Positions 1 through 21,238 of a stretch of 34,628 bases of DNA are shown here, one piece after another (within the stretch, counting starts at the first letter, position 1; each line of letters begins with the position of its first letter). The notes under the pieces are model-generated. The model saw only the letters and a program-made list of their open reading frames with translations, ran no database searches and was not told where the DNA came from. The stretch comes from a virus: positions 1 through 34,628 of IMG/VR virus record IMGVR_UViG_3300035122_000009; one strand, written 5' to 3'. Position numbers and translations under genes: made by a program.

Positions 1-1743
1 TCTTCTTAAGGTATCTAATGCCCTTCGGCATTGTTCGTGGTTGATGAGGGTTGCTGCCTCACCTTTCGTCAGCGGTGGCATTTCACCGCCCTTAAGAACG
101 TGCAGGTTGCGCAGCATTTTAATCTGCCCTGCCGACGGCTCGCCGCTGCGCCAGCGTTTGCTGCGTTCATTCAAAATACTCTGTCCCTGCGTGCCGGCGA
201 TTTCCGCCGCTGCGTCGTTGGCGCTTTCAAAATCCTTGTATTTCCCGATGCGCCGCGCGCCGCCGTCGAGTCGCACGCGGTTGACCCACTTCGGCTGCAT
301 CAAGCGCCACACCTCAAACCCACCGTTCTGTACGATCATGAGGCTCAGTGACCGCCCGTCGGCGTCCGTGCCGATACTTAAAGTATGCACCATGCCGTCG
401 GTGAACCACGCGAGGCGCGAGTTGCCGAAGAGGTCGAGCGCTGCCAGATACACATCGTCGGGCGAAGCGTCGATGCCGCCATCGAATGCAGGCAGTGGAA
501 AGAGTGGGTGTGTCAACCCCTGCTCACGGGCGCGGTCTTCGGCTTTTTTGAGTGTGATGGGTTTGCCCATAATCGAGCCGGCCATAACCAGGTCACGCGC
601 ACCCTTCGGCACCACGTCGATAATCACAGCGTTGGGATGACCGGCGTCGTCTGCCAGGCCTGCCTTTTTATCGAACCAACGCAACACACGCCCCGTCATT
701 TGAATATATGCCCCGTCATGTTGCGTGGGACGGCAGATCAAAGCGCAACTCGCGCGCGGCGCGTCGAAGCCTTCGATGAAGATGGCGCAGCCACAAAGGA
801 CCTGTATCGCGCCGTTATGGAATTTTTGGATAATGGCGCGGCGCTCCTCGCGCGGCGTCGTGCCGTCGATGGCATCCGCTTTAATACCAGTATCCCGGAA
901 CGCCGCCGCCAGGTCGTGCGCCTGTTGCACGCTGGCGGTAAACGCAATCGTCGGCCTATCGTGCGCAACTTCTTTCCATTTCTCAATAATGATTTCGAGC
1001 GCCGACGCCAGCGACAGGATGCGACCGGTTTCGCCTTGCGCGTAGTCGCCGACGGCATTCGTTCGCACGTCGCTGAAATCGTGCTCGTCCCGGTCCAGAT
1101 GCGCGGCGTAGGCCTCGAATTCGGTGATGCACCGGAGCGTATAAATAGCGTCCTTAATCGAAACCTTATACGCCGGTTCCGGGCCGAAGATACGCCCAAT
1201 GCCCAGCCCGTCGCTCCGAGTCGGCGTGGCGCTCGCGCCGATGAGTCGCATCGCAGAGTTGGCGGTGTAGAGTGCCGCCAGTGCCGCTTTCGGGGTGCGC
1301 GCGGCGCTGCGGTGACATTCATCGTAAAAACATACGTCGAGTGCGCCGGCGGCTAAAAGCGCGTCCATCCGACCGGGCGAGGAGAGGGTCTGGATAGAGC
1401 TGCTGATAATCTGCGCCCCAACGTCGTTCTGCCCGGCCTTCACGACGCCGGGCACGGGCAGTGTGGGCCAGTCGCGCAGGATGCGCTCGACGGGTTGTAG
1501 TACCAATTCATCGGTATGCGCGATGCACAAAATACGCAGTGCCGCGTCACGCGCCAGCAACGCATCGAAGACGCCGAATACGGTTTCGGTTTTGCCGCTC
1601 CCCGTCGCCATTGCCAGTAGCGCAGCCTGCCGCGTCGCGCCGGCGGCGTGCAGAAGCGACGCGCGCGGGTGCGGTTCCTGCTCCATCAGGGCGAGCGCAC
1701 TATCGCGGGCGTCTATTTGGTAAGGGCGGAGGGTGATGGTCAT
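1..1743 (-). CDS. SF2 DNA helicase (DECH box), C-terminus cut by window edge
   Basis: An ATP-dependent superfamily 2 helicase, probably for phage DNA replication or recombination. The minus-strand frame is open for all 581 codons from the ATG at 1743 to base 1, so the end is missing. Motifs in order: Q-like N-terminus (LRPYQIDA), Walker A GSGKT at about residues 48-52, DECH at 141-144, SATP at about 171-174, and motif VI QMTGRVLR at about 348-355. The last visible residues, with a TKGEAATLI stretch, resemble a short tail found on many phage helicases, so little is probably missing. The ATG overlaps the upstream stop as ATGA, which suggests translational coupling. The family call is firm; the exact role is inferred. 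Confidence 0.88.
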   Translation of the reverse strand, partial: MTITLRPYQIDARDSALALMEQEPHPRASLLHAAGATRQAALLAMATGSGKTETVFGVFDALLARDAALRILCIAHTDELVLQPVERILRDWPTLPVPGVVKAGQNDVGAQIISSSIQTLSSPGRMDALLAAGALDVCFYDECHRSAARTPKAALAALYTANSAMRLIGASATPTRSDGLGIGRIFGPEPAYKVSIKDAIYTLRCITEFEAYAAHLDRDEHDFSDVRTNAVGDYAQGETGRILSLASALEIIIEKWKEVAHDRPTIAFTASVQQAHDLAAAFRDTGIKADAIDGTTPREERRAIIQKFHNGAIQVLCGCAIFIEGFDAPRASCALICRPTQHDGAYIQMTGRVLRWFDKKAGLADDAGHPNAVIIDVVPKGARDLVMAGSIMGKPITLKKAEDRAREQGLTHPLFPLPAFDGGIDASPDDVYLAALDLFGNSRLAWFTDGMVHTLSIGTDADGRSLSLMIVQNGGFEVWRLMQPKWVNRVRLDGGARRIGKYKDFESANDAAAEIAGTQGQSILNERSKRWRSGEPSAGQIKMLRNLHVLKGGEMPPLTKGEAATLINHEQCRRALDTLRR

Positions 1744-2990: not shown

Positions 2991-3010
2991 TGACATTCAG
3001 TCGAATGTCA
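2991..3010. repeat. 8-bp inverted repeat across a stop codon
   Basis: TGACATTC, a four-base AGTC spacer and GAATGTCA form a perfect hairpin that contains the stop codon of the P-loop gene on the minus strand. No T-run follows on either strand, so it is not a classical terminator. It could protect an mRNA 3' end or be a protein site. Confidence 0.4.
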
Positions 3011-5048
3011 CATGATTCGGTGGTCTGCCGCGCTGGCCAGGAAATACCGCCGGTGCAACCCGCCCGCCCCAGATTTCGGTGATTTTTTCGAGCCATCCCC
3101 CGCGTTGCGCCCGGCGCTTTACGCGCTCTTCGCTTTCGGCGTTGTAGCCCAATGCCTCGCCGATTTCGGCGTACCCGAACGGCAAATTATCCCGGTAGTG
3201 CGCCACTAGGAACGGCACGAGGCGGACGTAATCCTGCCAACTAATCCAATCATATTCGGACTTACCCCCCAGCGCGGCGCGGGGGTCGGTGTAAAGTGCG
3301 TCGATTTCGACGGTAGGGATGGCGGAGAGGAGCCAGATATCGCAATCATTGGTGAGTGGACGCGCGCGGTAAATCGCCTGCGCCATTTCGACGGTGCGAA
3401 ACTGTTCGTGCAGCGTCTCCATGACCTCGTTGTCGAAATAGCCCGACACCGGTCGGTGCGGGATGCGGTCGCTGTTAAGCAGTGGGTAGGCGCGTCTCGT
3501 TACGGTATGCGCACTATCCGCCAACGGCGCGATATTCTCCGCGAGCGCGACGGCCTGGCGGCGGATGCTCTCGCCCGGCGGCGACGGCGCGCCCACCACG
3601 AATAAAGCATCGACGTTTTGGAAACGGTTCTCCCCGCGTAATGCGCCGAAGTGCAGGGTTTCGAAGTCGGCGTCTTTGAATATCGCCTCCACCGCTTTAT
3701 GGCAGACGATGCCGACCTTACGGTAGTCGTGGTAAGCCACGAATGCGCGCACCGTCGCCAGCATGTCGGCGGCGCTTTCCTTCATGCGTTCGGTGCCGTT
3801 GGTGCGATTGATGATTTGAAACACGCGCCCGCGCCGCGCGATGGCGGGGCGGAAGATATCGACTTCGACGCCGGGAAACATCTGCTGGTAAAGCGGCGGG
3901 TGCGCGGTGGCGTCCAAAACGATAACGTTGTCGGGCATTTTGGCGGCGACGCGCGCCCGGTCAATCAGGTGTAAGCCGTTGCTATCAATCCAGCAGCGCG
4001 ACTCCCAGCGCGGCCAATCATTCGTATACGCGCGGTATTCCTGGTCGATGAGGCGCAGGAAATCGTAGAGGTACCAGTACGGCGCGGCGTGTACATCGGC
4101 GGCAGAGGTTACGCGCGGCGCATCCGGCAGCACGTCGTAGTCCAGGTCGGCGAGCGCATAAACGTTCGTCAATTCGGTTTCGATCTGTTCTAGAAACTTG
4201 CGGGCCTTGAGGGTTTCGCCGCGCGCTGCCAACGCCTGGAGTTTGCGCGCGAGATCAACCGTCACCGGCGAGGTATCACCGACCGCCAACCCCCGCGGCG
4301 GAATGATCCGCTCGGAGATAAAAACGTTCAGGGGATTTTCGTCAATGATTACGGCGTCAAATGTGCCAGCGTTCAGTCCAGTAATGAGGTGTTGGTGCCT
4401 TGCAAAGACGATGGGTTTTTGTTTGGCGAGCCGGGACTGGACGCGAAACGGGCATTGATGTTGCCACGTGGGGCAAAGCTGGTAACACAATTGCCCGGCG
4501 GGGTAGCCTTTCGTCAACCACGGTAACATGGCGCCCTCGAATAAACGGCAGGCAGTTTCACCATCGTCGTTCACCGGGGTAGACATCGCCAGCCAGTAAT
4601 GCCAGCGCGCGGCCCGAAAACCCGGAATCGTGGCGGCGATGTTATCGAAGCCGTCGTGACGCGGGGAGAGCCACAGGATACGCGCGCCGCTATCCTGTGC
4701 AGCATGGACCGCCGCGTAGGTTTTGCCCGCGCCAGGCGGCACGATAATGAGGTGGAGTTTGTTGTCGTGACTCGTAATCAGGTGTTCGATGCGGCGCGGG
4801 AAGTACGCGCGGAGGCGTTCGACGGGGATGGCGTTCTCTGAAAACTGCGGCGCGGGGATGCTCAATTCCTCTAACTCTTCAAGGCTTGACCACTGCACCG
4901 ACCAATCCTGGAGCGGCGGCGGGGCCTCGCGTAAATCCGGCGCGGTCCAATCCGCCGCGTCGTTCTGGCGGCGCTCCGCTAGGAACCGCGCGATGGCGGC
5001 CTGCGCGCTTTGTTCGGAGTCGAAGAAGAGGTCGAGAAGGGTAGACAC
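2997..5048 (-). CDS. DinG/XPD-like P-loop helicase with four-cysteine cluster
   Basis: A 683-residue predicted ATPase. Walker A PPGAGKT is at 104-110 and the Walker B region AVIIDENP at 232-239. Between them lie cysteines 167, 188, 192 and 199, the place where DinG/XPD helicases carry their iron-sulfur cluster ligands. A VIVLDATAHPP stretch at about 375-385 looks like SF2 motif III or IV, and MAQAIYRARP at 555-564 like motif VI. The C-terminus (about 622-657) has a helix-turn-helix look followed by basic residues. The start is GTG at 5048, just after the stop of the upstream gene; no other start occurs before residue 154. Helicase function is inferred from motif order; the cluster is a prediction. 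It is the second helicase-like gene in the operon. Confidence 0.7.
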   Translation of the reverse strand: MSTLLDLFFDSEQSAQAAIARFLAERRQNDAADWTAPDLREAPPPLQDWSVQWSSLEELEELSIPAPQFSENAIPVERLRAYFPRRIEHLITSHDNKLHLIIVPPGAGKTYAAVHAAQDSGARILWLSPRHDGFDNIAATIPGFRAARWHYWLAMSTPVNDDGETACRLFEGAMLPWLTKGYPAGQLCYQLCPTWQHQCPFRVQSRLAKQKPIVFARHQHLITGLNAGTFDAVIIDENPLNVFISERIIPPRGLAVGDTSPVTVDLARKLQALAARGETLKARKFLEQIETELTNVYALADLDYDVLPDAPRVTSAADVHAAPYWYLYDFLRLIDQEYRAYTNDWPRWESRCWIDSNGLHLIDRARVAAKMPDNVIVLDATAHPPLYQQMFPGVEVDIFRPAIARRGRVFQIINRTNGTERMKESAADMLATVRAFVAYHDYRKVGIVCHKAVEAIFKDADFETLHFGALRGENRFQNVDALFVVGAPSPPGESIRRQAVALAENIAPLADSAHTVTRRAYPLLNSDRIPHRPVSGYFDNEVMETLHEQFRTVEMAQAIYRARPLTNDCDIWLLSAIPTVEIDALYTDPRAALGGKSEYDWISWQDYVRLVPFLVAHYRDNLPFGYAEIGEALGYNAESEERVKRRAQRGGWLEKITEIWGGRVAPAVFPGQRGRPPNHVTFD

Positions 5049-5054
5049 AATGAT

Positions 5055-5414
5055 TTAAGCTTCAAGTGCGGCTTTCAATTCTTGGATTTTTTCATTTGGC
5101 AACTTCCATAAATCACGAAGATTGATATGCGGGACTATTTTTTTAGCCGGTAGCTTTTTATTCAGGCGCGCGCGCTCCGCTATTAAATCGGCAATTTGAC
5201 CTTCAAGATCATCAATTTCTCTTTCATGAAATTCAATCTCGTCCCTCAAATCATCGATTTCATCATCAATGCCAGCGACCTCAAGTTTGATTTCTTCTAT
5301 ATCCAATTCGCCATTGTCTAGTACTTGCCAGCAGGCCCAACACTGCGGGGCATACAAATTGCCATATTGATCTAAGCGGTTATTGATATCGGTTCCGCAT
5401 GTCGCGCATTTCAT
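5055..5414 (-). CDS. zinc-ribbon plus coiled-coil protein
   Basis: A 119-residue protein. Cysteines 3, 6, 25 and 28 (CATC and CWAC) make a compact zinc ribbon; residues about 38-88 are an acidic coiled coil rich in I, D, E and L in heptad spacing, followed by a basic linker and a short helical end. GAGGAG lies 7 bases before the ATG. It ends 6 bases before the GTG of the P-loop gene, so the two are probably co-translated. The architecture suggests a small oligomeric adaptor. No known family is recognised. The gene is AT-richer than its neighbours. Confidence 0.65.
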   Translation of the reverse strand: MKCATCGTDINNRLDQYGNLYAPQCWACWQVLDNGELDIEEIKLEVAGIDDEIDDLRDEIEFHEREIDDLEGQIADLIAERARLNKKLPAKKIVPHINLRDLWKLPNEKIQELKAALEA

Positions 5415-5433
5415 GGTATTCTCCTCTCGTGAC

Positions 5434-5461
5434 TTGACATATTCTTACCGTGTGTTATACT
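5434..5461 (+). promoter_or_regulatory. forward sigma70-like promoter inside the minus-strand operon
   Basis: TTGACA at 5434-5439 and TATACT at 5456-5461 are separated by 16 bases. It fires rightward, against the surrounding genes, and the start would fall near 5468, only about 28 bases before a strong terminator. The -35 box continues as TTGACATAT, the same nine bases found in the divergent control region near 10665-10690, which suggests shared regulation. Confidence 0.6.
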
Positions 5462-5467
5462 TGATTC

Positions 5468-5522
5468 GATGCAACTAACCTTGTATCCGCCGCCCGCCGC
5501 GCCCACCAGCGCGGCTTTTTTT
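5468..5522 (+). ncRNA. candidate short RNA between promoter and terminator
   Basis: The expected transcript runs from about 5468 to the T-run ending at 5522, roughly 55 nt, mostly the terminator hairpin plus about 28 bases of leader. It is antisense to the intergenic part of the minus-strand operon mRNA. An ATG at 5469 sits at the presumed first base, so a leaderless leader peptide with a built-in terminator is an alternative. Its existence is inferred from the paired signals only. Confidence 0.35.
5496..5522 (+). terminator. rho-independent terminator, forward
   Basis: GCCGCGC at 5496-5502, a CCACCA loop and GCGCGGC at 5509-5515 pair perfectly, followed directly by seven T (5516-5522). The T-run is on the plus strand, so it stops rightward transcription from the promoter at 5434 and not the minus-strand operon. 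Confidence 0.75.
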
Positions 5523-5570
5523 GTGTGTCTTGTCATTGTAACACGGGCGGCTGATAGTGTGGAAATGACA

Positions 5571-5849
5571 TTATGGCATCATCCACCGCGCCCGGCAATC
5601 ATCGCACCGGCCCTGTTCGCGTTTGCCACTGCGGTAAAATGCGATACGTTCCGAGCCGCAGCGTGGGCATACCTCGCCACGCTGCCGGGCATACATCCGG
5701 CGCTCACACGCTTTGCATAGGTTCTGGCGCGGGCGCGCATCGGACATCACGAGATCATCCGACGGCGCGCGGTTGCACAAGCCCGAACGCGGGTTATCAC
5801 TCGCGTAGATATGCCAGGTGGAGCCGGCAGCGCGGCGGGCGTAGAACAT
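5571..5849 (-). CDS. small protein with paired zinc knuckles
   Basis: A 92-residue protein with seven cysteines: C25, CKAC at 45-48, CPRC at 61-64 and CDDC at 82-85. The last two pairs form a ribbon (CPRC-x17-CDDC), and C25 with a nearby His or the CKAC pair may form a second site. It is basic (many R and K), which suits nucleic-acid binding. The ATG follows the stop of the preceding gene with no gap. The function is unknown. Confidence 0.6.
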   Translation of the reverse strand: MFYARRAAGSTWHIYASDNPRSGLCNRAPSDDLVMSDARPRQNLCKACERRMYARQRGEVCPRCGSERIAFYRSGKREQGRCDDCRARWMMP

Positions 5850-6158
5850 TTATTTCACCCGAATCGACGCCGAACGCTTACTCTCTTCGCGAAAGCCTAT
5901 TAGCCATGGGTGTTGGTCAAGCATTTTTTCAAGCGATTTATTAAATCGAACGCTCTTTGCCGCCTCGATGTAGGTCACTTCGCCGGCGTCGAGTGAGAGT
6001 TTTTTGTCGCCGGTTTGGAGGAAATAATCCTCCACAAGGCCCTGAAGCCGCGCGCGTTTGGCACTTAGTTCCAGTTCGACTTTCAGGGCGTTGACTGCAT
6101 CGTCGGCGCGTTTGTAGTCTTCGAGCGCCTGGTTGATGAGGGCTAAACGGTCATTCAT
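5850..6158 (-). CDS. coiled-coil hypothetical protein, Gp157-like layout
   Basis: A 102-residue protein with GAGGAG 8 bases before the ATG. Residues 1-45 form a helical coiled coil (ALINQALEDYKRADDAVNAL); residues 50-102 contain a short strand-rich part with a lysine-rich end. This helix-then-strand order recalls the siphovirus Gp157 family, but I see no diagnostic motif, so this is only a suggestion. The gene is followed without a gap by the zinc-knuckle gene. Confidence 0.6.
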   Translation of the reverse strand: MNDRLALINQALEDYKRADDAVNALKVELELSAKRARLQGLVEDYFLQTGDKKLSLDAGEVTYIEAAKSVRFNKSLEKMLDQHPWLIGFREESKRSASIRVK

Positions 6159-6173
6159 TTCGATTTCTCCTCT

Positions 6174-6800
6174 CTATATTCCTAATTGGTCTTCTATCCA
6201 TTTTTGTGTTTCTGGGTGCAATACGCGGCCGTCCGTCGTCTTCTGATACCATCCCTTCGTGTCGGGGTTGCCATAAGCGCGCCCTGCCCCGCGCCAGTCT
6301 GCCAGCATTTCGCGGCGGTAGCGGTCGGGCATCGGTAGCGCACCGTTGTTGAGAAGGGCCACGGTGCGCCCGGCAAGAAAGTCGCCCATCTCGGTTGCCG
6401 GAAATGGTATCACCCCTAATCCATGCACCGCGATACCGGGAGCATAGTTGTCTATTGTGGTATATTTGAAATTGCCTTCCGGTCGGTCATTCATTAAAAA
6501 CCACCACTGCCAATGATGTTTGTTGCGGCGCTGGTGCTTGAGCCACGCGAGATTAAAGGCGCGCTCGACATCTTCTTTTGTAAGCAGAAAAACGTTGTTG
6601 TTTCGCGCTATATAATATTCCTTGCTTTCGCGCACCGGATATTCGCCATAGAAGTACCGCGCATAGGGAATAAACTCATCCGGTAGAAACTTTGATAGAT
6701 CGTGTAGTAGGCCTAATAGCGGCACACCTAATTTGCACGCTTCGATGAAGACGAACCACTTGTGCCGCAGCACCGATTTCAGATATTTGAGATAGATCAT
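6174..6800 (-). CDS. DUF5662 family phage protein
   Basis: A 208-residue protein. The N-terminus (YLKYLKSVLRHKWFVF), HDLSKF at about residues 33-38, PYARYFYGEYP, and a histidine-rich AWLKHQRRNKHHWQWW segment match my memory of the DUF5662 family common in phages. The HD pair and the later histidines could bind a metal, as in HD-type phosphohydrolases, but no activity is established to my knowledge. The ATG at 6800 overlaps the stop of the LexA-like gene as ATGA, so I prefer it to the longer frame starting at 6827. Confidence 0.75.
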   Translation of the reverse strand: MIYLKYLKSVLRHKWFVFIEACKLGVPLLGLLHDLSKFLPDEFIPYARYFYGEYPVRESKEYYIARNNNVFLLTKEDVERAFNLAWLKHQRRNKHHWQWWFLMNDRPEGNFKYTTIDNYAPGIAVHGLGVIPFPATEMGDFLAGRTVALLNNGALPMPDRYRREMLADWRGAGRAYGNPDTKGWYQKTTDGRVLHPETQKWIEDQLGI

Positions 6801-7057
6801 TTTCCATTCCCTTCTGGCGCAATCCACCGCGCCCCTACAACTTTAATCCCGCACATTTGATTGCCCTTGCCGACAATCACTTCAATGCGGCCCTTTAATT
6901 CCAGTGTTTCGATCCCGTATCGTACTACTGAAACACTCGTGTAGTCCGTGAGATCAATCAACTGGCGCAGCGACGGCGCGCAGCCGTCGTTTTCGGTTTT
7001 GTAGTCTACGATAGCCCGGTATAAACGCTCCAGGCGCGCGGCGTAACGGTCGGTCAT
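6797..7057 (-). CDS. LexA-like winged-helix DNA-binding protein
   Basis: An 86-residue protein resembling only the N-terminal DNA-binding domain of LexA. The pattern of a first helix (LYRAIVDYKTENDG), APSLRQL, then a recognition helix (YTSVSVVRYGIETLELKGRIEV) matches the LexA scheme aPSlReia...stV..hl..Le.kG. There is no autocleavage domain, so it would not respond to RecA itself. GGAGG lies 5-6 bases before the ATG. Likely a small phage regulator; its target is unknown. Confidence 0.65.
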   Translation of the reverse strand: MTDRYAARLERLYRAIVDYKTENDGCAPSLRQLIDLTDYTSVSVVRYGIETLELKGRIEVIVGKGNQMCGIKVVGARWIAPEGNGK

Positions 7058-9051: not shown

Positions 9052-10421
9052 GACCCTAACTCCTCAAATAAAGTTCCTTCCCAGTCGGGTGTTTTTTCGG
9101 TTGCCAGACCGTCACCCGCGCGCCACGCCTGCCAGACCTCTAGGTCGGTGCGTGTCTTTGCCAGATCAAGATACTCGCCGCTGATTTCGACCGCAACCCC
9201 GCGCCGGACTAATGCGTTGGCAACCATTGCGGTAACGCCGGTGCCGCCGAAAATGTCCAAGACGGTGGCGGGGATGGCGGGGGCGTCGGCGTGTTCGCAG
9301 GTGGGGCGAAAGCCGAGGGTAGATACCTGTGTATTCCCGCGCGGAACAGATTCCCATCCATTGTAAAACTCTTGTCCGGTTGTGTTTTTTCTAAAGGTTC
9401 CAGATTGATTAAACTCTCTTTCCGTCACTCGCTCCCATTGCGCGCCGCACACGCTACATACTCCGCGCTCGCTCGTGCTGGCCTTGATGAATGGCTCCAC
9501 CAGCGCCGGCGGGAAGGTGGCGTAGTGCGCGCCGGGGTAGGGCTTGGGGTTGACTTGCAGCGCCGCCGGTAGATCGTGGCTGTCGAGCGGCAGGTCGCTA
9601 TCTCGCAGCGCTTCCAATTGCGCGATTTCATGTCGGCGCTGAAAGATAGCAAAGTCTATTGACTCGTTCCAGGCGTCGGTAGTGCGGCGGTTGCGGCCGG
9701 CGGGGTTTATGAAATCACCCATTTTTTCAGAGCTTCCGACACCCGCATAGTATCTTTGTTTTTGTGCCGGGGTTGCATTATCATCTTGTTTAAGATGAAG
9801 TCCATATTCATAACGCGCGAGGCTTTCTTTTTTATGCCCCACCCGCACCGCGTCCGCATCGTAGAAGTAGCGCGCGCTTTTAGTCAGCATGATGATATAT
9901 TCGTGCGCGGTAGAAGGGCGGTCGCCCACGCTTTCAGGCATCGGGTTCGCCTTGAGCCAGGCGAAAAACGAGCGTACCCACCAGCCGTCGGTTTGCAGCG
10001 CGAGCGCGAGGCGCTGCGGGATGAGCATCAAGTTTTTTGCAGGGAGATTGGACGCAGCATTGCCGCGCGTATTCACGTCACTCGCCGCATTCCGCCTGGA
10101 TTGAAGTGATTTTTTACCCTGATTACTAGGGGCATTCGGGTTGTATCCATTAAAGCCAGAATACCCATCCCCCATATTTACCCAGGCCACGCCGTCGGCG
10201 CGGAGCACGCGCTTAACCTCGCGGAAGATTTCAACCATGTGTTTAAGGTAAAGCTCCGGCGTCGGTTCCAGACCGAGTTGTCCGGTCCAGTCGCCGTAGT
10301 CTACATCCTGCGCTGCATACCGGCGAAGCGCGTAGTAAGGCGGCGAGGTAATGCAGGCGTGTACGCTGTTGTCAGGTAGCGGCAGCGCGCCGGCGTTGGC
10401 CTGGATAAGGTGAATATCCAT
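9048..10421 (-). CDS. beta-class DNA methyltransferase (N6-A or N4-C)
   Basis: A 457-residue DNA methyltransferase. Motif IV TSPPYY at residues 25-30 precedes motif I DIFGGTG at 389-395, so the catalytic motif comes before the cofactor motif, as in the beta class of amino-methyltransferases. TSPPY is compatible with adenine-N6 or cytosine-N4. The roughly 340 residues between include a likely target-recognition region and a CSVC pair (with a later CEH) that may hold zinc. It starts at 10421, sharing one base with the regulator's stop codon (TAATG). With the Dam-like gene it forms a two-methyltransferase cassette, most simply an anti-restriction function. Confidence 0.87.
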   Translation of the reverse strand: MDIHLIQANAGALPLPDNSVHACITSPPYYALRRYAAQDVDYGDWTGQLGLEPTPELYLKHMVEIFREVKRVLRADGVAWVNMGDGYSGFNGYNPNAPSNQGKKSLQSRRNAASDVNTRGNAASNLPAKNLMLIPQRLALALQTDGWWVRSFFAWLKANPMPESVGDRPSTAHEYIIMLTKSARYFYDADAVRVGHKKESLARYEYGLHLKQDDNATPAQKQRYYAGVGSSEKMGDFINPAGRNRRTTDAWNESIDFAIFQRRHEIAQLEALRDSDLPLDSHDLPAALQVNPKPYPGAHYATFPPALVEPFIKASTSERGVCSVCGAQWERVTEREFNQSGTFRKNTTGQEFYNGWESVPRGNTQVSTLGFRPTCEHADAPAIPATVLDIFGGTGVTAMVANALVRRGVAVEISGEYLDLAKTRTDLEVWQAWRAGDGLATEKTPDWEGTLFEELGS

Positions 10422-10627
10422 TAGTATTTATTCCCCATTTCCGGGTGACTAACACGAATACCCCCGCGCCAGTGAGCAACGGCGTTTTGTTCACGCTGGT
10501 TGAAATAATCGTCTAGAATCGCACGCAGCGCCGCCGAAAAATTGCACGGCGCAACGGAACTTTCATCGGCCTTGCACTGCACTTTTTTAATCAGGTCTTC
10601 GGTCAGGTAAATTTGTTTTGGTATCAT
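10421..10627 (-). CDS. ribbon-helix-helix regulator
   Basis: A 68-residue protein. The start PKQIYLTEDLIKKVQ (strand then helix) followed by NFSAALRAILDDYF (second helix) has the Arc/MetJ/CopG ribbon-helix-helix layout; such dimers place the strand in the major groove of palindromic operators. The tail after residue 46 is probably disordered. GGAGGTGA precedes the ATG closely. It is the first gene of the leftward operon and sits next to a divergent promoter pair with a 9-bp inverted repeat, so self-regulation and control of the recT side are the natural inference. Confidence 0.65.
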   Translation of the reverse strand: MIPKQIYLTEDLIKKVQCKADESSVAPCNFSAALRAILDDYFNQREQNAVAHWRGGIRVSHPEMGNKY

Positions 10628-10644: not shown

Positions 10645-10673
10645 ACTATACCACGCATGACAACATATGTCAA
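10645..10673 (-). promoter_or_regulatory. leftward sigma70 promoter for the early operon
   Basis: On the minus strand TTGACA (10673-10668) and TATAGT (10650-10645) are 17 bases apart. Transcription would start near 10638, just before the ribosome site of the ribbon-helix-helix gene. Its -35 box lies inside the left half of the shared inverted repeat. Confidence 0.75.
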
Positions 10674-10690
10674 GCATTTGGTTGACATAT
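10665..10690. promoter_or_regulatory. candidate operator between divergent promoters
   Basis: ATATGTCAA (10665-10673) and TTGACATAT (10682-10690) are perfect inverted copies with 8 bases between them. Each half includes the -35 box of one of the two divergent promoters, so one bound dimer or tetramer could block both. A nested TGACA-5-TGTCA repeat lies at the left half. The adjacent ribbon-helix-helix protein is the likely ligand; this is inference. Confidence 0.55.
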
Positions 10691-10710
10691 ATGCAACATG
10701 GGTGTATAAT
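10682..10710 (+). promoter_or_regulatory. rightward consensus sigma70 promoter
   Basis: TTGACA (10682-10687), a 17-base spacer and TATAAT (10705-10710) match the bacterial consensus exactly. Transcription would begin near 10717, giving a short leader with AAGGAG before the ATG at 10741. This should be a very strong early promoter unless repressed through the overlapping inverted repeat. Confidence 0.85.
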
Positions 10711-12361: not shown

Positions 12362-12464
12362 TATAGGACCGCCATATATAGCCAATTAATTACCATCGCC
12401 CCCGATTCAAGAGAATCCTACTACTGAAAAAGGTAATTAATTAGCCATAGGTGGCGGTCCTATA
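12362..12464. repeat. imperfect inverted repeat with 33-bp arms
   Basis: The left arm is 12362-12394 and the right arm 12432-12464; 28 of 33 positions pair. The outer 13 bases (TATAGGACCGCCA) and inner 11 bases (AATTAATTACC) are perfect; mismatches are in the middle. The spacer is 37 bases. It could extrude as a cruciform or fold in RNA. There is no flanking transposase, so an insertion sequence is unlikely. Confidence 0.75.
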
Positions 12465-12521: not shown

Positions 12522-12549
12522 TTGACAGGCTCGAAAAGTATGGTATAGT
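12522..12549 (+). promoter_or_regulatory. late promoter P1, extended -10
   Basis: TTGACA (12522-12527), a 16-base spacer and TATAGT (12544-12549) preceded by TGG, an extended -10. First of three successive forward promoters ahead of the late genes. Confidence 0.65.
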
Positions 12550-12633: not shown

Positions 12634-12663
12634 TTGACAATCGCGCTGGTTCCGGTTTATAAT
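12634..12663 (+). promoter_or_regulatory. late promoter P2
   Basis: TTGACA (12634-12639), an 18-base spacer and TATAAT (12658-12663). Transcription would start near 12670 and meet a terminator-like hairpin at 12714-12738. Confidence 0.65.
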
Positions 12664-12669
12664 GGAATT

Positions 12670-12740
12670 GCATTAGGAACAGCGGTTCATTTCTTTCTTT
12701 TCTCCTCGTGGCAGGGGCGGTCAACTGGCCGCCCCTTTGA
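12670..12740 (+). ncRNA. candidate short RNA with CTCCTC tract
   Basis: The expected transcript from P2 to the hairpin is about 70 nt. Its unpaired part is pyrimidine-rich and contains CTCCTC (12702-12707), complementary to the GAGGAG ribosome sites used by several genes here (for example before the small terminase and the tail-tube gene). A regulatory RNA acting on translation, or simply an attenuated leader of the late transcript, are the options. No transcript data are available. Confidence 0.3.
12714..12738 (+). terminator. terminator-like hairpin before late promoter P3
   Basis: GGGGCGG (12714-12720), an eight-base loop and CCGCCCC (12729-12735) pair perfectly, followed by TTT, then GACTTTT. 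The T-tract is interrupted, so termination may be partial. The -35 box of the next promoter overlaps it. Confidence 0.55.
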
Positions 12741-12766
12741 CTTTTGCCCCAACCCTGACGTATAAT
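12737..12766 (+). promoter_or_regulatory. late promoter P3
   Basis: TTGACT (12737-12742), an 18-base spacer and TATAAT (12761-12766). Transcription is predicted at about 12773, the first base of the next ATG, so the late mRNA from this promoter could be leaderless. Confidence 0.6.
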
Positions 12767-12772
12767 GACGGT

Positions 12773-12880
12773 ATGAGTGAAGCGGAGTGGTCGGTTTTAC
12801 GTGACTGTTTGATTATGTTATTCATTCTGGCCTGCGGTGTATGCATCGTGGGCGGAGTAGTATTGTGGTTGGTGCAATGA
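12773..12880 (+). CDS. tiny single-pass membrane protein
   Basis: A 35-residue protein: a short polar start (MSEAEWSVLRD) and one hydrophobic segment (LIMLFILACGVCIVGGVVLWLV) long enough to span a membrane. The ATG is about 7 bases after a -10 box and has little ribosome-site character, so leaderless translation is possible. Its TGA overlaps the next ATG as ATGA. It is too short to name; a holin-like or superinfection role is only a guess. Confidence 0.5.
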   Translation: MSEAEWSVLRDCLIMLFILACGVCIVGGVVLWLVQ

Positions 12881-14665: not shown

Positions 14666-15046
14666 ATGGCAACCGAACTTACGAAATCGGCGCAGGTGGG
14701 GCATACCGTACAATACCAATACGGCATTGCGACCGGCGCGGCGGCGATTGATCATATTTTCACGGTGGCGGGGTATCCGCTCATCATTGACCGTTTGACC
14801 CTGGCCTTCAGCGCCGCACCCACCACGAGCGAAAACCTCATCATCAAGATTGATAGTATAAGTGGTGCAGCATACGATGTTGAATTGTACAATCGGGACG
14901 CGGCGAGTATCAGCCTAACCGACCTCGTTTTGACTTCAGATGACTTTGGTGCAATGCCGCTCGCCATCGGGGATATCCTGACGGTGACATTTACGAATAC
15001 CGATACACGCACCTGGGCCTTGACCGTCGCGCTCCGGGAGGCCTGA
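14666..15046 (+). CDS. beta-rich virion-type hypothetical protein
   Basis: A 126-residue protein with GGAG repeats before the ATG. It is rich in T, S, V and D, with alternating strand pattern (LIIKIDSISGAAYDVELY, DILTVTFTNTD), typical of small virion surface or decoration proteins. There are no cysteines or catalytic motifs. It lies between terminase and portal, a place that usually has no such genes, and is the first of three similar beta-rich genes. The function is unknown. Confidence 0.6.
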   Translation: MATELTKSAQVGHTVQYQYGIATGAAAIDHIFTVAGYPLIIDRLTLAFSAAPTTSENLIIKIDSISGAAYDVELYNRDAASISLTDLVLTSDDFGAMPLAIGDILTVTFTNTDTRTWALTVALREA

Positions 15047-15049
15047 ACG

Positions 15050-15520
15050 ATGCCCATCGAAAATGGTCAACCCGGTTGTTTTGATGGCATCCTTCAGGCG
15101 TCTCGGAATCAGCGCATTATTTCACGCTGGATAAACGATAAAGTTGTGGGATCAGCCGACCCGACCGTTCTTATCGACGGTCCATCTGGCGACCAACCGG
15201 GTATCTATTACAATATCCCTGAGAATATGCAGTTGATTGTAACCGATGTTGCGGTTTGGGTTACGACCCTGAGCGATAATGCAAAATTCGAATTCGGGAT
15301 ATGCACCGCGATTAATGGCGGCGGGACATTCGTACCGCAGTCCGTTGCTATTCCGGTCGCTACTGAGAACAAAGCGGAAAGTTCAAGCTTTGCGCTTTCC
15401 GCTCCCGGCCAAGCCATCCGCTATAGTGACGACGTGCGGAGCGTAACCTGGCGTGTGACCCCCAACGATACCGACACTACCGTAACCATTGAATGGCGCG
15501 GATTTATAGAGAGAGAATAA
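15050..15520 (+). CDS. beta-rich protein with MPIENG start (copy 1)
   Basis: A 156-residue protein starting MPIENGQ. Strand-rich segments (MQLIVTDVAVWVTTL, SVTWRVTPNDTDTTVTIEW) suggest a beta sandwich, similar in style to the neighbouring genes. It shares its first six residues with the next gene, which suggests a shared targeting or assembly signal, or a duplication. A virion component such as a head decoration or spike protein is plausible but unproven. Confidence 0.6.
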   Translation: MPIENGQPGCFDGILQASRNQRIISRWINDKVVGSADPTVLIDGPSGDQPGIYYNIPENMQLIVTDVAVWVTTLSDNAKFEFGICTAINGGGTFVPQSVAIPVATENKAESSSFALSAPGQAIRYSDDVRSVTWRVTPNDTDTTVTIEWRGFIERE

Positions 15521-20905: not shown

Positions 20906-21107
20906 CATTACATTTGTTTCAACGGGCGACGATGCTCTTGAGGTGCGTGAAACACCCCAACTCGACCCGCTCGAAAAATACCTCCGCGCCCGACGCGACG
21001 CCTTACTTGCCGAACTGCGCGCTATCGAGGATATCCTGGGCATCGACCCAACTCTGACGGCAAGTCAGGCGCGGCGGGCGTATACGCGCTCGAATGAGCG
21101 CGCTTGA
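20895..21107 (+). CDS. small helical hypothetical protein
   Basis: A 70-residue protein. After a short polar start, residues 24-52 form a charged coiled-coil-like helix (LEKYLRARRDALLAELRAIEDIL); the end is basic. It overlaps the previous frame by 11 bp. No family is recognised. It is the last gene before the capsid promoter. Confidence 0.5.
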   Translation: MSNNITFVSTGDDALEVRETPQLDPLEKYLRARRDALLAELRAIEDILGIDPTLTASQARRAYTRSNERA

Positions 21108-21133
21108 CCATTTGTTATTATTCATGCTAAAAT
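21104..21133 (+). promoter_or_regulatory. promoter upstream of the capsid gene
   Basis: TTGACC (21104-21109), an 18-base spacer and TAAAAT (21128-21133). It overlaps the stop of the preceding small gene and would start RNA near 21140, in front of a terminator. Confidence 0.45.
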
Positions 21134-21139
21134 GATGGC

Positions 21140-21226
21140 AACATAGCTGAGGCGCACCGCGCCGACGCATTTTAGCGCTTGGGAATTCTTGGGCGCACTT
21201 CACCTGATGGTGGGGTGCGCTTTTTT
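21140..21226 (+). ncRNA. candidate short RNA or attenuated capsid leader
   Basis: From the predicted start near 21140 to the T-run at 21226 is about 87 nt. It contains a small GGCGC-ACC-GCGCC hairpin and then the terminator hairpin. Either an independent RNA, or an attenuator that limits or times capsid expression. Inferred from signals only. Confidence 0.3.
21193..21226 (+). terminator. strong terminator directly before the capsid gene
   Basis: GCGCAC-TT-CACC, a TGAT loop and GGTG-GG-GTGCGC pair over 12 positions, two of them T-G wobble pairs in DNA terms, followed by six T. It ends 12 bases before the capsid ATG, so it would also stop readthrough from the upstream late genes unless bypassed. 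Confidence 0.8.
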
Positions 21227-21238
21227 GTTTGAGGGATT

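Follow-up and report, generated by a model that had tools for sequence, protein, structure and literature searches.

Positions 5434-5522 of a tailed-phage fragment likely form a small-RNA gene on the strand opposite the early operon. The fragment, hereafter the window, is the whole 34,628-nt stretch of DNA that we analyzed (IMG/VR virus record IMGVR_UViG_3300035122_000009, positions 1 to 34,628), and it carries terminase, portal, RecT-like, and helicase genes. Our preferred reading, to which we assign a probability of roughly 0.4, is that of a self-contained phage gene whose cis-antisense RNA, together with the opposing promoter, would limit the early transcription or mRNA that reaches the replication genes. 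The promoter and terminator, the structure of the predicted product, the orientation, and the gene order are read directly from the DNA, and the unit itself is likely real; its mechanism we infer from this arrangement. It is probably a fresh example of a familiar type, the phage antisense small RNA, and not something unprecedented. The features of the locus are:

1..1743, minus strand: DNA helicase gene, downstream in the operon and cut by the window end (PHROG 16, E 6e-58; ResIII and Helicase_C)
2997..5048, minus strand: second gene downstream, for a 683-aa P-loop protein of the replication module (32% homologue in a Chloroflexota prophage, where a helicase homologue adjoins it)
5055..5414, minus strand: downstream gene, AT-rich, 119-aa protein with CxxC motifs and a coiled coil (open reading frame list, domain search)
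5415..5570: 156-bp gap between two genes of the left-going early operon, which holds the unit (open reading frame list)
5434..5461, plus strand: sigma70-type promoter, TTGACA-N16-TATACT, with an extended -10 (TGTTATACT); one of 6 strict promoters in the window, 0.2 expected
5468..5522, plus strand: predicted untranslated RNA, 55 nt, its first base placed 7 nt after the -10 box
5468..5487, plus strand: predicted 5' hairpin, GAUGCAA-CUAACC-UUGUAUC, 7 bp with a 6-nt loop; also a DNA dyad and possible operator
5488..5495, plus strand: C-rich single-stranded linker CGCCGCCC in the predicted fold
5496..5522, plus strand: intrinsic terminator, 7 G-C pairs, 6-nt loop, T7 (sequence and fold)
5571..5849, minus strand: upstream gene, 92-aa zinc-ribbon-like protein (open reading frame list, domain search)

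The first-pass annotation had described a promoter closely followed by a terminator, and both elements are present. The boxes TTGACA (5434-5439) and TATACT (5456-5461) lie 16 nt apart, match the consensus at 11 of 12 bases, and include the TG of an extended -10; the terminator stem GCCGCGC-CCACCA-GCGCGGC occupies 5496-5515 and is followed by TTTTTTT. The opposite orientation that had been claimed is confirmed as well, as the flanking genes (5055-5414, 5571-5849, 5850-6158 and on) are all on the minus strand. Promoter and terminator thus point away from all adjoining genes and are situated where the left-going early operon has its widest gap. A mere chance association of promoter-like and terminator-like sequence is very unlikely. 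Against dinucleotide shuffles, the whole window has 6 strict promoters where 0.2 would be expected and 3 strict distinct terminators where 0.1 would be expected; besides the 5434-5522 unit it contains no promoter-terminator pair of the strict kind, and a unit this strong was absent from all 300 shuffles. When the criteria were eased slightly and applied to about 1.42 Mb of loci from other phages, 200 promoters were found and, among them, 3 distinct units, all apparently running in the same direction as their neighbours. As a positive control, the relaxed scan found the late promoter-terminator of P22 (37852-37945) but missed sar and oop, which have weaker promoters, and the scarcity of such units in other phages therefore tells little.

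The predicted RNA (55-57 nt) folds at -20.9 kcal/mol with a z score of -3.66, to which the terminator contributes part, and none of 200 shuffled sequences was as stable. Its fold consists of two hairpins joined by the C-rich linker. The 5' hairpin, which the earlier description did not contain, begins exactly at the predicted first base. Hairpins of this kind with 7 pairs start at 0.9% (~1%) of window positions; a chance placement at the predicted +1 is improbable, though not overwhelmingly so. The hairpin is more stable on the plus strand (-4.8 kcal/mol) than on the minus strand (-1.0 kcal/mol) because its one G-U pair becomes A-C there. The plus strand looks like the RNA strand, and the G-U pair is a small but independent sign of this. 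No Rfam covariance model matched the predicted RNA at gathering score. The idea of a short antisense RNA thus stands in its sequence elements, namely a strong promoter, a structured 5' end, a strong terminator, the opposite orientation, and a two-hairpin build like that of sar and OOP; the RNA itself is predicted.

A stable two-hairpin fold that leaves the linker exposed and has a 6-nt loop (CUAACC) would also suit an RNA that acts in trans, pairing with a host message or another phage message or binding a protein via the linker or the 5' loop, with its position being incidental. Numerous small RNAs of various types are made during P22 infection, among them antisense RNAs and others that end shortly before a gene (PMC13397905), which is in keeping with this possibility. 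When the 5' part was matched against unlinked translation starts of the phage, however, the best pairing reached -33.8 kcal/mol compared with a 5% null of -34.7, no better than a shuffled RNA predicts, and we hold a role in trans to be possible though doubtful.

The 5' hairpin corresponds in the DNA to a near-perfect 20-bp dyad, GATGCAA-N6-TTGTATC, spanning +1 to +20, a classical operator position. The promoter could accordingly serve as a repressor-controlled roadblock, with the RNA as a by-product, and the phage encodes conceivable repressors: of the operon's products, the one at 6797-7057 has a weak match of the LexA-like DNA-binding kind, and a small one at 10421-10627 looks like a ribbon-helix-helix protein by eye, with no Pfam match. 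Phage operators usually occur in sets, but the window has no second copy of the dyad at 5468-5487 within two mismatches, which makes this explanation improbable.

A different operator had been suggested from nine bases (TTGACATAT) shared with the operator at 10665-10690. These bases are indeed present at 5434-5442, and the window has only three exact copies, each at a strong promoter, but they amount to the -35 consensus plus TAT (6 of the 9 are the -35 hexamer), and the promoter of an unrelated phage (locus L096) likewise starts with TTGACATAT. The operator at 10665-10690 is a two-armed dyad, whereas 5434-5442 carries one arm; the two-arm dyad of TTGACATAT is absent at the promoter of the 5434-5522 unit. 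When the two regions were aligned locally, their score was matched by 73 of 1000 shuffles. Given a single arm that is mostly -35 hexamer and an unremarkable alignment, shared control is not supported. At the other site itself (10645-10710), back-to-back strong promoters share the dyad 10665-10676/10679-10690, and the first leftward gene codes for a 68-aa protein of ribbon-helix-helix appearance, as judged by eye. This is likely a self-regulated early switch.

The predicted transcript start also lies one base before an ATG (5469), and the unit had been proposed to encode a leaderless peptide with a built-in stop signal. If so, translation could control the terminator in the manner of an attenuator, with three proline codons before the stem, and another likely leaderless gene at 12773 gives the idea some backing. 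The frame from ATG 5469 has no stop ahead of the terminator, however. It stays open for 83 aa through the terminator and antisense to the zinc-ribbon gene, matches no PHROGs family, and has its start codon inside the 5' stem, which leaves the proposal unsupported; we regard a peptide gene as extremely unlikely. The apparent leaderless gene elsewhere in the window (12737-12879, plus strand) has a promoter at 12737-12766 and encodes, from ATG 12773, a 35-aa peptide with a single membrane span, its stop overlapping the start of the next small frame. This phage may therefore use leaderless starts.

The unit might instead mark a cassette boundary. GC content falls to ~0.40 from ~5050 and is regained only at ~5500-5600; the 119-aa gene has a GC content of ~0.40-0.44 compared with ~0.6 on either side. 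An AT-rich gene in a GC-rich operon suggests a recent arrival. The promoter is directed away from this gene, and both elements of the unit might have come along with a recently inserted cassette made up of the gene and its flank, or might limit stray antisense transcription at its boundary, without any role for the RNA. This account is unlikely: a 5' hairpin at +1 and a near-consensus promoter look maintained, not decayed, and a promoter retained merely to be terminated would be without use. The gap region also has inverted repeats at 5531-5544/5557-5570 and 5484-5496/5544-5556. Directly past the terminator, an imperfect dyad (TGTCATTGTAACAC/GTGTGGAAATGACA) at 5531-5570 covers a weak promoter-like site on the minus strand (TCCACA-17-TACAAT, 5563-5535), although sites that match at 9 of 12 bases are frequent by chance.

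We searched for relatives of the locus in phage, viral, and Chloroflexota collections and found none that carries it. Relatives identified via six window proteins share only the terminase (at most 62%), the DUF5662 protein, and the RecT-like protein, and none retains the early locus. Neither the 683-aa nor the 119-aa protein had a tblastn match among 50,697 phage records, no relatives of the 119-aa protein were found, and the 683-aa protein lacks relatives in the phage and viral collections as well as a Pfam or PHROGs match. The nearest relative found for the latter is in a Chloroflexota prophage, G125 (32%, E 1.4e-62), where its homologue adjoins a homologue of the window's helicase, alongside genes that we take, by eye, to be RecT-like and primase-like. 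Chloroflexota genomes contained this one syntenic prophage and a fragment (G451) that ends at the informative side. The synteny with G125 marks the genes that follow the unit as the early operon's replication half and makes a Chloroflexota bacterium the probable host of the phage. The early operon of this distant prophage has no strong opposing unit. Scanning viral contigs for the pattern of the 5' hairpin plus a T-run gave 9 matches, none with a convincing promoter and most within open frames. A covariance model built from the single sequence had no match in 1.25 Mb of loci other than the window itself, and in 158 genomes from the same class as G125 it gave two weak matches, which comprised the terminator hairpin only and were without promoter.

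Known cis-encoded antisense RNAs of phages are short and untranslated, and each has a terminator and a promoter of its own, the latter on the strand that opposes the target; the unit has such a promoter and such a terminator, and its predicted RNA is of this kind. The sar RNA of P22 is similarly short (68-70 nt) and is annotated at 15021-15090, on the strand opposite arc-ant and in the gap between these two operon genes. It shares with the unit the -10 sequence TATACT and the order of parts, in which a hairpin that begins at +1 is followed by a short linker and then by the terminator hairpin. We detected no sequence similarity between the two, and the genes differ. Whereas sar abuts the start codon of the antirepressor gene ant (from 15091) and blocks its translation, the downstream gene here encodes the CxxC/coiled-coil protein, and its start codon (5414) is 54 nt from the RNA start (5468); the predicted RNA therefore leaves the ribosome-binding site of this gene uncovered.

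The arrangement also resembles OOP and its promoter pO in lambda and P22, where an opposing short terminated transcript with two hairpins lies ahead of the early operon's replication genes. In the window, the promoter opposes the operon directly ahead of the genes for the 683-aa protein and the helicase, which are in the same order in the prophage G125. Lambda OOP, which we presumed to span 38599-38675 (it is not annotated in the lambda record), folds similarly, with a hairpin from +4. OOP promotes decay of the cII mRNA by RNase III (PMC12197685). It overlaps the 3' end of cII (or of c1 in P22), however, whereas the predicted RNA ends (5522) 49 nt short of the stop codon of the upstream gene, which encodes a zinc-ribbon-like protein and not a CII-like regulator. 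Neither the start site nor the upstream frame is touched, and thus the unit is not a homologue of sar or OOP. Since both the downstream ribosome-binding site and the upstream frame are uncovered, a direct block of translation by the RNA is unlikely. Lambda pO, situated opposite the early operon at the start of O, lowers the pR transcription that reaches the origin by opposing transcription (PMC3985674).

Control of early transcription in cis, our preferred reading, could proceed as follows. The strong host-type promoter would fire whenever host RNA polymerase can reach the phage DNA and would give a 55-nt RNA with a structured 5' end and no usable reading frame, transcribed against the early operon immediately before its replication half. 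The RNA would form a perfect duplex with the early mRNA within the intercistronic stretch, and polymerases from the unit's promoter would collide with those from the early promoter at 10645. Cleavage of the duplex by an enzyme of the RNase III type and collision of polymerases may then together limit how much mRNA is made from the helicase gene and from the genes for the 683-aa P-loop and 119-aa proteins, and could thereby affect replication; the model for this outcome is the effect of pO/OOP on transcription that reaches the lambda origin. If the RNA is made, it would represent sar/OOP-like antisense control far outside the enteric phages and without sequence relation to theirs, opposing mini-transcripts ahead of phage replication genes would seem to arise repeatedly, and the unit would be a short element through which gene control in a group of uncultivated phages could be tested. 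To our knowledge, phage RNA regulation in Chloroflexota is unstudied. It would be a bold generalization, and one that we doubt, that Chloroflexota phages possess, as a convergent counterpart of OOP/pO, a small antisense RNA whose only target is the gap between two operon genes, with neither a start site nor a coding region included, and which sets expression of the replication half apart from the rest of the early operon by cleavage or collision.

A terminator immediately after a promoter is also found in late leaders of the pR'-tR' type, such as that of P22, but these run with their genes while the unit at 5434-5522 runs against its neighbours. A second mini-unit in the window is a better match to this kind (12634-12745, plus strand). 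It is situated just ahead of the late genes and has a promoter that matches at 12 of 12 bases, a terminator at 12713-12736, and no reading frame. A further plus-strand promoter is nearby (12522-12549), and comparably placed sense-strand units are present in the prophage G125 (L123:3128-3204) and at L096:3357-3476. The non-coding stretch 12362-12464 contains a 33-bp inverted repeat (88%) around a 37-nt centre, a possible origin or regulatory site, for which an Rfam search gave a spurious microRNA match only. A third mini-unit (21104-21228, plus strand), in the structural-gene region just upstream of a 772-aa gene, combines a TTGACC-18-TAAAAT promoter with a strong terminator at ~21191-21222, and its RNA fold has a z score of -3.29.
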